Shown here: piece by piece, positions 1,914 to 6,349 of the stretch | Layout of the letters: each line of letters begins with the position of its first letter | How positions within the stretch are numbered: position 1 is the first letter of the stretch | Assembly (NCBI RefSeq): GCF_003024805.1 | Contig: NZ_PUEC01000002.1 | Location: forward strand, 1 to 64,000 | Source: Duncaniella muris | GTDB taxonomy: Bacteria; Bacteroidota; Bacteroidia; Bacteroidales; Muribaculaceae | DNA length: 64,000 nt | Direction: 5' to 3' | Notes under the pieces: generated by a model | The model's input: the letters and a program-made list of their open reading frames with translations, nothing else | Databases searched by the model: none | What the model was told of the DNA's origin: nothing | Translations under genes and position numbers: made by a program

Positions 1914-4556
1914 TTACTTAACGGCTATCTTCTTTACATTTTTGCCCTGACGGACGATATAAATACCTGCCGGGAGATCTTCCAGGCGTGTAGTCAGCTT
2001 TATACCGTTAATATCAAAGATCTCGATGTCGTTATTTTTGGAGTCGATAAAGATTGTATCGATCCCTGATTCAACACCATCGATGTAGAAGAAATCTTTC
2101 CATTGAGGTGCTTCTTTGTACAGGCTTTCACTTCCTATGGGTACATACAGCCTGCAGTTCCATTTGTTTATATCGTCGAGTGCCTGGTCGCCGCATACAG
2201 GAGGTGTGGCTGCATACGAGTAGAATTCTGTCAATCCGGTGCAGTCAGAGAATGCCTCTTTGCCAAAAGATGTGGCTTTATCTCCGACTGAAAAGTATTC
2301 CATTCCCACGCAACCGGAGAATGCCCATTCACCAATTGATATCAAAGCCGGCGAATTCTCTACTTTTTTCAGAACCTCACAATTTTCAAACGTATGGTTT
2401 TTGATTTCCGGGATATTGTTTCCAAATGTCACCGACTGCAATTTTATGCAGTTATAGAAGGCATAGTCGTCTATGACACCGTTGTTATCCAAAGTAATAT
2501 CTGTAAGATAGTCGTGGTGGTAGAAGGCGTACGCTCCTACGTCAATAACTTTCAGTTGAATTCCCTTATATGTAACGGTTGCGGGAACTGAGAATACAGC
2601 ATTAGAGGGTGCATAGAAATAGTCTACGACATTGCAGGTTCTTTCAGACGGGCTGACAGGGACATACACGATTCCCTCAACATCGAACATCGAGCTTAAG
2701 AATGGATATAAAATTTGATTTCCGAATTTATACTGGTTGTTAGAGATAAAATTAACAACAGTATTATTAAATGAATAACATCCTTCAGGGGGATTGTTCC
2801 CAAGCCAAAAAATCTTTTCGATGCCATTCAAAAAATCGGCAGCGCCTGAAATCTGCGTCACGCCTGATCCAACAGTTAACGATTTCAAGGGATTACCCGA
2901 TAATGTTGCCATATCAAATGACTTGACTGCGTTTGGAATAGTGAAGTCATAAAGTTTACAGCCCAAAAATACATTTTTGCCGATGCTTGACAAAGTAGCA
3001 GGCATACGTACATACGTAATGTCTTCGCAATATGAGAAAGCATTATCGGCGATTGTTTTTACCGTACTCGGTACGGTGTATTCGCCTGATAGCGTTGCAG
3101 GGGCAAAGTAGAGGGTAGTTTTCGCCTGGTCAAAAATGACACCGTCCTCTATAGTCGTTTCTTGAGCAGAATACGCAATGGCTCTGCCGTAACTAAATGG
3201 ATTGGAAATGTTATCGGGGTATGCCGATTTTTTTAGCCCAGTACAACCACTGAAAGCGTCGTTCCCAATACTCTTAACTGAATTACCTATAATAACGGAT
3301 GTGAGTCCGGTACAGTTGTAGAAAGCTATTTCATCGATAGTTTGCACTGAATTAGGTATTACAACCGATGTAAGACCGGAACAATTGTAGAAAGCCCTCC
3401 CACCTATAGTTAGTACCGAATTCGGTATTACAACCGATGTGAGTCCGGAACAATATGCGAAAGCGCTGTTTCCAATACTCTTAACCGAATTGCCGATAAC
3501 AACAGAGGTGAGGCCGGTGCAACCATTGAAAGCCCCGATCCCGATATCATCAACTGAATTACCTATAATAACGGAGATGAGACCTGTGCATTCGAAGAAA
3601 GCACCGTCACCTATAATTTTTACCGAATTCGGTATTTCAACTGATGTGAGTTCGGTGCAATATGAGAAAGCATCATCGGCGATTGTTTTTACCGTACTCG
3701 GTACAGTGTATTCGCCCGATAGCGTTACAGGTGCAAAGTAGATGGTAGTTTTCGCGCGGTCAAAAATGACGCCGTCCTCTATAGTCGTTTCTTGAGCAGG
3801 ATACGCAATAGAGGTGACGTAATTACTAAATGGGTTGGGAATGTTATCGGGATACGCCGATTTTTTTAGCCCCGAACAATTTGCAAAAGCGCTGTACCCG
3901 ATACTCATAACCGAATTACCGATAACTACGGAGGTAAGTTTGGTGCAGTAGTAGAAAGCGTATTGGTCGATAGATGTTACTGATTCCGGGATGGTGTATT
4001 CGCCCGATAGCGTTACAGGTGCAAAGTAGATGGTAGTTTTCGCCCGGTCAAAAATGACACCGTCCTCTATAGTCGTTCCTTGAGCAGAATACGCAAAGGC
4101 TATGCCGGTGCTAAAAGGATTGGGAATGTTATCGGGGTACGCCGATTTTTTTAGCCACGAACAATCTGCGAAAGCTTCGTACCCGATACTCATAACCGAA
4201 TTACCGATAACAACGGAGGTGAGTCCGGTGCACATGTAGAAAGCACGGTCACCTATAGTTTTTACCGAATTCGGTATTTCAACCGATGTAAGTCCGCGGC
4301 AATAATAGAAAGCATAGCCGGCTATTTCAACAAGAGTGTACTCGATACCGTTTTTAATAGGAAAATCGGGCAATTCCAGCGCTCCAACAGGCCCGGAAGT
4401 AGAGCCGATAACCGCGCATGTTCTTTTTGACTCGCTTAAGACGAGGTAATTTAGCGTGTGTCCTTTGTATGTGTAGGTAAACTCGTCTTGATCCGCCGCG
4501 TGTACGGACATCACCAAAGACATTAACCCACACAAAAGTAGTAAAAGTCTTTTCAT
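1914..4556 (-). CDS. BspA-like leucine-rich-repeat secreted protein (880 aa)
   Basis: Exported surface protein of the BspA/LRR_5 type. MKRLLLLLCGLMSLVMSVHA is a clear signal peptide, so the Met at 4556 is taken rather than the frame opening at 4613. The body is a ladder of about 23-residue repeats of the form aFxxCtgLtsVxIgnSVxsIG. About three near-identical modules with TTIEDGVIFDxAKTT(I/L)YFAP interrupt the ladder and are visible at the DNA level near 3080-3190, 3690-3800 and 3990-4090. The C-terminus (about the last 50 residues, FDINGIKL...AGIYIVRQGKNVKKI) resembles the sorting-like domain of Bacteroidota exported proteins. Such proteins usually take part in adhesion; the ligand is unknown. 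Confidence 0.85.
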   Translation of the reverse strand: MKRLLLLLCGLMSLVMSVHAADQDEFTYTYKGHTLNYLVLSESKRTCAVIGSTSGPVGALELPDFPIKNGIEYTLVEIAGYAFYYCRGLTSVEIPNSVKTIGDRAFYMCTGLTSVVIGNSVMSIGYEAFADCSWLKKSAYPDNIPNPFSTGIAFAYSAQGTTIEDGVIFDRAKTTIYFAPVTLSGEYTIPESVTSIDQYAFYYCTKLTSVVIGNSVMSIGYSAFANCSGLKKSAYPDNIPNPFSNYVTSIAYPAQETTIEDGVIFDRAKTTIYFAPVTLSGEYTVPSTVKTIADDAFSYCTELTSVEIPNSVKIIGDGAFFECTGLISVIIGNSVDDIGIGAFNGCTGLTSVVIGNSVKSIGNSAFAYCSGLTSVVIPNSVLTIGGRAFYNCSGLTSVVIPNSVQTIDEIAFYNCTGLTSVIIGNSVKSIGNDAFSGCTGLKKSAYPDNISNPFSYGRAIAYSAQETTIEDGVIFDQAKTTLYFAPATLSGEYTVPSTVKTIADNAFSYCEDITYVRMPATLSSIGKNVFLGCKLYDFTIPNAVKSFDMATLSGNPLKSLTVGSGVTQISGAADFLNGIEKIFWLGNNPPEGCYSFNNTVVNFISNNQYKFGNQILYPFLSSMFDVEGIVYVPVSPSERTCNVVDYFYAPSNAVFSVPATVTYKGIQLKVIDVGAYAFYHHDYLTDITLDNNGVIDDYAFYNCIKLQSVTFGNNIPEIKNHTFENCEVLKKVENSPALISIGEWAFSGCVGMEYFSVGDKATSFGKEAFSDCTGLTEFYSYAATPPVCGDQALDDINKWNCRLYVPIGSESLYKEAPQWKDFFYIDGVESGIDTIFIDSKNNDIEIFDINGIKLTTRLEDLPAGIYIVRQGKNVKKIAVK

Positions 4557-4674: not shown

Positions 4675-5613
4675 TTACCACTTGTTTCCTTTGGCGCTGT
4701 TTTGGCCTCGCTCCATCAGCATATAGGTAACCATTTTGTTGAGCGCGTTGAATTCGGCTTTCAGCTTTGCGGCATCGGGTTTCAGACCCTTGTTGAGCTT
4801 CTGAAATTCGGGGAAGCGACCGCTGTTTATGGCAATGGAAATTGCAGGGGAGTGGTCAATTGAAATGCTTGAAAGGTCGAGGCTGCCATCGGCATTTCTT
4901 TGTACCTTAAAGGGCGCTATCGAGCCATTCGCATGGTAGCTATATACTGTGGCATATGTATTGTTGCCGTAAACGATTGGGCGAGCCATGAGAATATTGT
5001 TACTGCCAACCCTGAATTCAGCGATGTCAACTACATGGTGAATGCCTTTATCGGTCAATACGATAATGTTTTTTACAGTTCTGGCAATCCATGATCCCTC
5101 GTCGGTTTTGCCGATTATTCCTGATAGCTTTGATGCCGGCCAGTCTTTGCTGTTGCGTGAAGCTACGCGTCCGGGCAAATTCAGCTGTACCGGATAAAAC
5201 ACATCTGCAAGCTCAATCTCCTGCGTTTTTATTGCGAGTGAGGAAGCCTCCACCTTTTCATTACTGTCGGCCGACAGGGCAGCACAACGGCTCTGAAGGA
5301 ATTCATGAAATGTCCTTACGGCTGTTGCTACATCATTTGCGGGGCCATAGAGCCAACGGCCGGCGGCATATTCCGCGCCGATGTATCCGAGAATCGTTGT
5401 GAATATTTTTTCACAAGCGGTGGCGTTGGTACAGCACAATACACCCAATACGTTTAGATTGGATCCGATCGGCGTCATAAAAGAGGATTGATTGTCCCAT
5501 AGCCGGAATGCCCTTTTCAAACGGCTGACATAAGAATCGGCGCTCTTCGCGGTGGTCAGACCTCTCTTAGAAAGAAGCCATTTTTTGAAATCAGACAGCA
5601 TTTTACTTTCCAT
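4675..5613 (-). CDS. Unrecognised 312-aa protein downstream of a structured leader
   Basis: I do not recognise a family. The first 60 residues (SDFKKWLLSKRGLTTAKSAD, then SYVSRLKRAF) look helical and are reminiscent of the SAM-like core-binding domain of tyrosine recombinases, but no recombinase catalytic residues follow. The C-terminal half is predicted mixed alpha/beta with many hydrophobic strands, and there is no signal peptide or membrane segment. Start codons at 5613 and 5601 are both possible. The gene is preceded by about 530 nt of hairpin-rich sequence with its own promoter (6150-6181), so it is probably read from a long structured leader. The BspA-like gene begins 118 bp downstream. 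Confidence 0.6.
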   Translation of the reverse strand: MESKMLSDFKKWLLSKRGLTTAKSADSYVSRLKRAFRLWDNQSSFMTPIGSNLNVLGVLCCTNATACEKIFTTILGYIGAEYAAGRWLYGPANDVATAVRTFHEFLQSRCAALSADSNEKVEASSLAIKTQEIELADVFYPVQLNLPGRVASRNSKDWPASKLSGIIGKTDEGSWIARTVKNIIVLTDKGIHHVVDIAEFRVGSNNILMARPIVYGNNTYATVYSYHANGSIAPFKVQRNADGSLDLSSISIDHSPAISIAINSGRFPEFQKLNKGLKPDAAKLKAEFNALNKMVTYMLMERGQNSAKGNKW

Positions 5614-5639
5614 TGATTACACAACCCAATGGCTTCCGG

Positions 5640-6143
5640 TCGGGCAATGATTAAGCGGAAAAAGCGTGAAGCCGATTGTTGCTCGCTTCACTATCTGAGG
5701 CCTTCGCATTGCCTATTCTGTCGAAACGAGCAACGCTGACCCCACGCCGTATGTATATAATCGGCATGCTCCGTCGCGGAGCATGAGGATATTACATACC
5801 CATGAGCATCATCGCTGCAAGGTCGCCTGACAGAATTTTTGAAAGTTGCGAAGTTTCAGATAGTCAGAAACCAAGCGTCAATAACGCTTTTTACTAATAT
5901 GTCTTGGCATGCTCAGTGGCAAGCCGATAACGTTGCCATTGCTCTGGCTATGGGAGGGATGGCAACACATAAACCCACCTCATCCTCCGGAATAAAGCTC
6001 ATTCTTAAGCTTCAATGCCGGCAACGGCGTAGAGTTTAATGTGCAAATATCTGATTTACATCACAGAAGCGACAAAACAGACTTACGGGGCAAATCCCTG
6101 AAAATCGTTTTAGCCAATTGTTGTAGAATAAATCCAAAATTTG
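5640..6143 (-). ncRNA. Long structured leader or non-coding RNA, unidentified
   Basis: On the - strand, from the predicted start near 6143 to the 312-aa gene, at least five hairpins can be drawn: 5932-5939 with 5959-5966 (8 bp); 5906-5912 with 5919-5925 (one mismatch); 5873-5878 with 5884-5889; a long bulged hairpin 5749-5758 with 5789-5799 capped by a perfect 9-bp stem 5765-5773/5777-5785 with loop TCG; and 5678-5685 with 5727-5734. The last stem competes with 5667-5673/5686-5692. No long leftward reading frame spans it. It could be a cis-regulatory leader or a stand-alone RNA. It lacks obvious tmRNA or RNase P hallmarks. Confidence 0.5.
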
Positions 6144-6149
6144 TAAATG

Positions 6150-6181
6150 CAAAGTTAAACTCATTTTTTTACTGCTCCAAA
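6150..6181 (-). promoter_or_regulatory. Promoter of the structured leader
   Basis: On the - strand: TTTG (6181-6178), 20-bp spacer, TAACTTTG (6157-6150), a full consensus match. A weaker second candidate lies at 6044-6076 (TTTG, 21 bp, GATATTTG). Both read toward the 312-aa gene. The rest of 6182-6349 is low-complexity T-rich sequence followed by short GC-rich repeats, with no gene seen. Confidence 0.7.
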
Positions 6182-6349
6182 AATGAGGCTGTTTTTTTGA
6201 GTCTTTTTTCTGAATCAGCGTGTTAAAACGATCTCTGATATGAGAAAGTCCGGAGCCGGCCACGCACAAAGTGCGGAGCCGACACCGGGTCGATTTTTTC
6301 GAGAATGATGGCCGGGGGAGGGATTGTTGCCTGGACGGGTGTTGCCGCT

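Follow-up and report, generated by a model that had tools for sequence, protein, structure and literature searches.

Leaders that work by transcription attenuation and the platforms of riboswitches carry mutually exclusive helices upstream of a gene, with one of the alternatives being a GC-rich hairpin followed by a U-tract. The leader RNA described here has the same arrangement, with the difference that nearly the whole RNA is taken up in two complete folds, possibly started by a loop-loop contact, and in a further difference from riboswitch platforms its downstream genes have no pathway in common. Leader-dependent control of surface loci is also known from antitermination by NusG paralogs (LoaP, and UpxY in the Bacteroidales), systems whose targets are particular long operons. 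In the gut Bacteroidota are a dominant phylum, and to our knowledge few RNA switches are known from the phylum.

Structured RNAs of the same phylum are held in Rfam as the motifs Bacteroidales-1 (RF01693), Bacteroides-1 (RF01694), Flavo-1 (RF01705), 6S-flavo (RF01685) and Bacteroid-trp (RF01692), and none of these matches the window (the whole stretch of 64,000 nucleotides analysed) or further copies of the element at permissive E-values. The Rfam comparison proposed in the initial annotation leaves the element without a match to any known RNA family, both against the window at the gathering threshold and against positions 5500-6300 at E-values up to 10 (T-box model included), and the same holds for 10 further loci and 20 type-2 loci at E-values up to 1. 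The DUF805b RNA (RF02914, cis-regulatory in Rfam) gives 30.2 bits at positions 803-838 of L234, under its cut-off of 35.6; this 35-nt stretch lies between a compact copy of the element and the gene, past the U-tract, and is not part of the element. The large catalogue of candidate structured RNAs from human microbiomes of Fremin and Bhatt 2021 (PMC8040213) includes, in the portion of its text compared here, palindromic, terminator-like Bacteroidetes motifs of 80-132 nt (HMP2_4205, HMP2_1065 and HMP2_1032), among which there could be a fragment of the present family. A two-state leader family is not described in that portion. Many structured 5' regions without Rfam hits are reported from Flavobacterium psychrophilum of the same phylum (PMC9723704), and the excerpted part of this paper names no such multi-copy family. 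No description of the leader family was found in the main texts of papers available without subscription, and a regulator form that is known in kind is seen here in a leader family that is apparently unrecorded.

The leader RNA of the window is encoded on the minus strand between a promoter and a gene for a 312-aa protein (4678-5613), and all features below lie on this strand with 5' to 3' positions descending. The full-consensus leftward promoter that the initial annotation placed at 6150-6181 is present in the minus-strand sequence as TTTG (6181-6178), a 20-nt spacer and TAACTTTG (6157-6150), corresponding to the Bacteroides -33/-7 type described in PMC7366714, and it is unchanged in the closest relative, L033. 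A proximal candidate (6044-6076) consists of TTTG (6076-6073), a 21-nt spacer and GATATTTG (6051-6044), with seven of the eight letters of the -7 box in place and one departing from consensus. By alignment to the promoter boxes of the relatives, this proximal candidate and not the distal promoter is probably their counterpart. No long leftward ORF is found from the distal promoter down to 5613, as had been noted, the sole leftward ORF of at least 60 aa in the interval being a 77-aa TTG ORF (6036-6269) that ends upstream of the core.

A leader of some 500 nt had been proposed; the interval is indeed hairpin-rich and folds beyond its shuffles, but the conserved part is a narrower core of type 1 that runs from a GCGTT segment to the U-tract (5891-5659) and is supported by blastn and by two covariance models, R1 and R2. 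R1 scores 179.9 bits on the core (E 3.8e-51) with the window copy itself part of the model, and R2, built from the compact type-2 matches, recognises it independently with 62 bits (E 1e-8), these E-values being approximate owing to a short calibration. The predicted fold of 5893-5659 has an energy of -97.4 kcal/mol (z -8.2), with 0 of 200 shuffles equally low, and the segment 5747-5659 alone reaches -40.3 kcal/mol (z -5.3). Upstream of the core a variable, hairpin-rich domain termed P0 (5894-6043) also folds well (-52.1 kcal/mol and z -3.5 for 6045-5894), and related domains are present in other type-1 copies.

In the first of the two folds, the rod state, the 5' and 3' halves of the core zip together through helices P2, K, P3, P5 and P6. 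The P2 strand CTATCTGA (5856-5863) pairs with TCAGATAG (5698-5691), a helix that is 99.7% paired across the copies with both-sided changes in 6 of 7 pairs. K is formed between CTTCGCA (5847-5853) and TGCGAAG (5708-5702), which are the loops of hairpins A and B of the other fold, and is 99% paired with compensatory changes present. P3 joins ATTCTGTC (5829-5836) to GACAGAAT (5722-5715), being 93% paired with covariation in 7 of 7 pairs, and P5 joins GCAGCG (5813-5818) to CGTTGC (5735-5730), 95% paired, with the 3' strand also being used by a helix of the terminator state. The 9-bp stem on a bulged outer stem described in the initial annotation corresponds to P8, CATGCTCCG (5785-5777) with CGGAGCATG (5773-5765), set on P7 (5799-5794 with 5754-5749), and this bulged hairpin (5749-5799) is variable among relatives.

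Covariation in the rod helices exceeds the controls in both subtypes. In an alignment of 91 type-1 copies fitted to the rod, 91.2% of cells are paired compared with 72.9% after shuffling and 35-45% with the strands slid, and 775 cells are compensatory compared with 236 in the shuffles; in the 51 type-2 copies, likewise aligned to the rod, 91.8% are paired compared with 67.1%. None of 500 shuffles is as good, the shuffle controls being of a kind that leaves shared ancestry in place. A structure-blind MAFFT alignment of 26 copies gives 85.2% of cells paired compared with 74.3% for shuffles and 38-43% for slid strands, with both-sided changes in 32 of 45 pairs.

In the second fold, the split state, each half folds on itself. 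The 5' half consists of P1L, P4 and hairpin A, with the P4 strand GGTTTCTGAC (5863-5872) pairing with GTCAGGCGACC (5831-5821) around hairpin A (5841-5857; GAAA with TTTC, loop CTTCGCAAC). The 3' half forms a terminator-like hairpin (5664-5747) of two stacked helices around hairpin B (5698-5714; AGGC with GCCT, loop AATGCGAAG). The outer helix is composed of GCGTGGGGTC (5747-5738) and GGCTTCACGC (5673-5664), the inner helix of GTTGCTCGTTTC (5734-5723) and GAAGCGAGCAAC (5689-5678), and the U-tract (5659-5663) abuts the stem immediately. In 131 of 152 copies the element has a run of at least four T residues at its end, and a poor U-tract (TTCTGTTT) is found in many Muribaculaceae-like copies. When the 3' half is folded alone, the terminator hairpin results in 51/51 type-2 and 50/87 type-1 copies. 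Type 1 additionally has a small alternative hairpin (5666-5691), GTGAAGC (5691-5685) with GCTTCAC (5672-5666), which is mutually exclusive with the inner helix; these are the two competing stems near the gene that the initial annotation had pointed out. Since the small hairpin lies before the U-tract and could form in the rod too, both states might terminate.

The split-state helices are 88.6% paired in an alignment not fitted to them, with 96 compensatory cells compared with 40 in shuffles and 22-52 with strands slid, counting the non-overlapping helices P4, AT and T. Each of these three exceeds its own shuffles in compensatory cells in type 1. The covariation of P1L is not clearly above shuffles, nor is that of P4 in type 2. 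The covariation of this state is far weaker than that of the rod, in part because its strands hardly vary.

Both helix sets exist and are mutually exclusive. The predicted energies of the two states lie apart by about 9-11 kcal/mol on average with the rod lower, and in the window copy the split state has -89.3 kcal/mol compared with -94.7 kcal/mol for the minimum-energy fold. The advantage of the rod is lost in 120 of 138 chimeras in which 3' halves were swapped between copies. Nearly all highly conserved bases pair in one state or in both, and the conserved GGGC positions fall in hairpin B. Hairpins A and B have complementary loops, as given by the 99% pairing of K, and these loops could thus start the exchange of strands.

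Relatives of the element reach well past close strains. A blastn search with 6190-5600 gives matches in 60 of 148 genomes of relatives. Within the query these fall mainly at 288-356 and at 432-532, and the distance between the two blocks varies, as would be expected of a structured RNA. With R1 the element turns up in 107 of 392 Bacteroidales genomes, representing 60 of 205 genera, in a scan limited to six scored candidates for each genome; a more complete scoring of 25 genomes, almost all picked for earlier matches, finds 24 positive with 2-19 copies each, the copy numbers being lower bounds. Copies were located by a pattern scan in Segatella copri, Parabacteroides distasonis, Bacteroides caecigallinarum and Muribaculaceae, and also in Prevotella, Phocaeicola, Paludibacteraceae and Salinivirgaceae. 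The compact subtype, type 2, was first met as weaker R1 matches and is about 165-168 nt long with the same layout as type 1; a GATG segment present in type-1 copies, which bears on a possible short ORF of a leader-peptide attenuator, is absent from it. R2 has matches in 58 of 392 genomes sampled evenly across Bacteroidota, other orders and more distant families included, and in this phylum-wide sample type 2 is more widespread than type 1. Given the independent recognition of the window element by R2, the two types are taken to be homologous. A conserved structured leader with alternative pairing near the gene, as the initial annotation had conjectured, is thus widespread in Bacteroidales and beyond with strong covariation. 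Of the three outcomes that the initial annotation named as refuting it (conservation confined to close strains, lack of covariation, and identity with a known RNA family), none is seen.

The source genome of the window carries six copies and one fragment. Among the compact copies, one (L281, 2332-2503) stands before a 696-aa gene that by eye is TonB-receptor-like and another (L283, 242-417) precedes a small gene, zinc-ribbon-like by eye, at the head of a same-strand run. A broken leader fragment (L077, G000:C16:256-418) has its first 5' segments intact and the remainder degenerate.

Computationally, the element is a conserved, two-state structured leader with a promoter, a terminator-like end and a sense gene, and mutually exclusive helices of the terminator/antiterminator kind lie between promoter and gene, as judged from sequence and folding only. 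The favored reading, to which we give a probability of roughly 0.6, is that of a family of cis-acting leaders, each controlling the gene behind it, most probably by attenuation of transcription. In the proposed mechanism the 5' half would fold first into P1L, P4 and hairpin A, and the 3' half, once made, would zip with it into the rod, with the complementary loops of the two hairpins, A and B, supposedly providing the nucleus. Formation of the rod would free the 3' arm of the terminator and allow RNA polymerase to read through; alternatively the 3' half would fold on itself, and the GC-rich hairpin with its U-tract would stop transcription before the gene. Once the polymerase has read through, the released 3' arm would pair just before the start codon in a helix termed P9, perhaps locking the read-through state. 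We infer termination in the cell and the choice of default state, and likewise that a factor or small molecule may bias the choice by stabilizing or opening the 5' domain, which would be the sensing part.

A classical metabolite riboswitch, with the ligand bound by the rod or the 5' domain, is a sub-case of attenuation, so that its probability overlaps with that of the favored reading, and we regard it as unlikely. The size of the element, its terminator/antiterminator layout and its occurrence as leaders in multiple copies are as in riboswitches. The strongly conserved bases, however, are nearly all in the alternative pairings and leave little obvious unpaired pocket, and the downstream genes follow no common pathway, with 108 downstream proteins hitting 86 Pfam families of which the most frequent, LRR_5, occurs in 8. 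Other downstream genes encode lipoproteins, outer-membrane proteins, HU-like and LytTR regulators, restriction-modification methylases and a DrmD/phospholipase-D-type helicase (some names by eye). Neither defence nor secretion describes the set as a whole, since some of the genes are of the defence kind and most are not, and secreted products are mildly enriched by a simple rule (50% compared with a background of 32%). The element would work in the manner of a riboswitch or attenuator; membership in the riboswitch class is not claimed, as the usual pathway coherence is absent.

The diversity of the downstream genes also means that the RNA-plus-protein system suggested in the initial annotation fails. 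The 312-aa protein is absent from all 246 other Bacteroidales genomes searched, with the first gene in L035 being the only relative seen, and it is itself unrecognized, as had been stated, with no family assigned from Pfam, NCBIfam, PHROGs or PDB. The best match is a weak one to Phage_int_SAM_5 (E 0.19), a faint likeness of the N terminus to the SAM-like domain of phage integrases without a catalytic domain. In L033, which shares 93% identity with the window, leader and promoters have been retained and most of the 312-aa gene is deleted, so that the leader there directly precedes the gene for a BspA-like LRR_5 surface protein, which in the window is the next gene in the same direction (1917-4556). 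An obligatory pairing of RNA and 312-aa protein is therefore rejected.

A second alternative, which we consider rather improbable, is control of translation or mRNA stability with constitutive read-through, in which P9 would either open or close the site where ribosomes land or form a 5' structure that protects a processed mRNA. P9 (5631-5673) is formed between GGCTTC (5673-5668) in the 3' arm of the terminator and GAAGCC (5636-5631) downstream, ending shortly before the start codon, and it is found in many copies with compensatory changes. The test for it discriminates moderately, with a median of 0.15 (type 1) and 0.30 (type 2) of foreign downstream regions pairing equally well, because GGCTC is common to many copies. 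P9 sits beyond the U-tract and so cannot itself antiterminate, a role for which it is ruled out, and it may point to translational control instead, as may the poor U-tract of some copies. Control at this level leaves unexplained, however, the T-run after the stem and the near-perfect terminator hairpin, and many type-2 copies, SusC-linked ones included, are without a convincing P9.

More doubtful still is a free-standing, trans-acting small RNA that has a promoter and a terminator of its own and stands before genes by chance. The element does have a promoter and a terminator-like end, with 120 of 138 copies carrying a TAnnTTTG box no more than 170 nt upstream compared with 11 of 138 control windows (80/87 and 4/87 for type 1 only), and in type 2 some copies are separated by 220-270 nt from a SusC-like gene as the next gene, with others having no close called gene. 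Against chance placement, the nearest downstream ORF of at least 80 aa is sense in 120 of the 130 cases having one, and the start codon lies a median of 69 nt beyond the element's end (from the 110 copies for which a start was called, almost all type 1). A promoter box belonging to the gap between element and gene is rare (8/145), P9 ties the RNA to sequence past its end, and the 24 positive genomes each carry 2-19 divergent copies. A DNA-level repeat of the MITE or REP kind, kept as a hairpin or recombination site, would suit a partly palindromic, multi-copy element with several copies near contig ends and a mosaic-looking L033, but it is already largely refuted and very improbable given the fixed orientation between promoter and gene, the U-tract, the compensatory changes and the loop-loop complementarity, with a mobile-element origin rejected in that neither blastn of the window element against phages and plasmids nor the exact element pattern in viral contigs gives a match.

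A wider and tentative proposal, to which we give somewhat less than even weight, is that the leaders form a phylum-wide class in which one signal, or one elongation or RNA-binding factor, would set the fold of as many as about 19 leaders in a genome simultaneously and unite unrelated surface, restriction-modification and regulatory genes in one RNA-controlled regulon. This is a multi-copy, widely spread leader family absent from Rfam that precedes outer-membrane proteins, lipoproteins, BspA-like proteins, restriction-modification genes and regulators, and its signal, if found, would reveal a common control layer over many accessory genes. The two fully alternative folds offer a clean system for studies of co-transcriptional folding, and the leaders could be usable as parts for gene control in gut commensals.

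Several loci show further variation around the leader. In L033 the segment 6062-6475 (reverse-complement), compared with 6053-5636 of the window, differs on both sides of K and of P3 and on the 3' side only of P2, and by sequence it looks like a mosaic, as though a segment had been taken from another leader by gene conversion. At five loci (L254, L256, L260, L268 and L277) a SusC/RagA-like receptor gene follows a compact copy at a distance of 220-270 nt with no clear P9, and such copies may constitute a functional group of their own or be free small RNAs. In L034, L035, L038, L039, L053 and L062 the leader is followed by a short variable gene and then by a BspA-like LRR protein, with the short genes differing between loci, which suggests exchange of the first gene.
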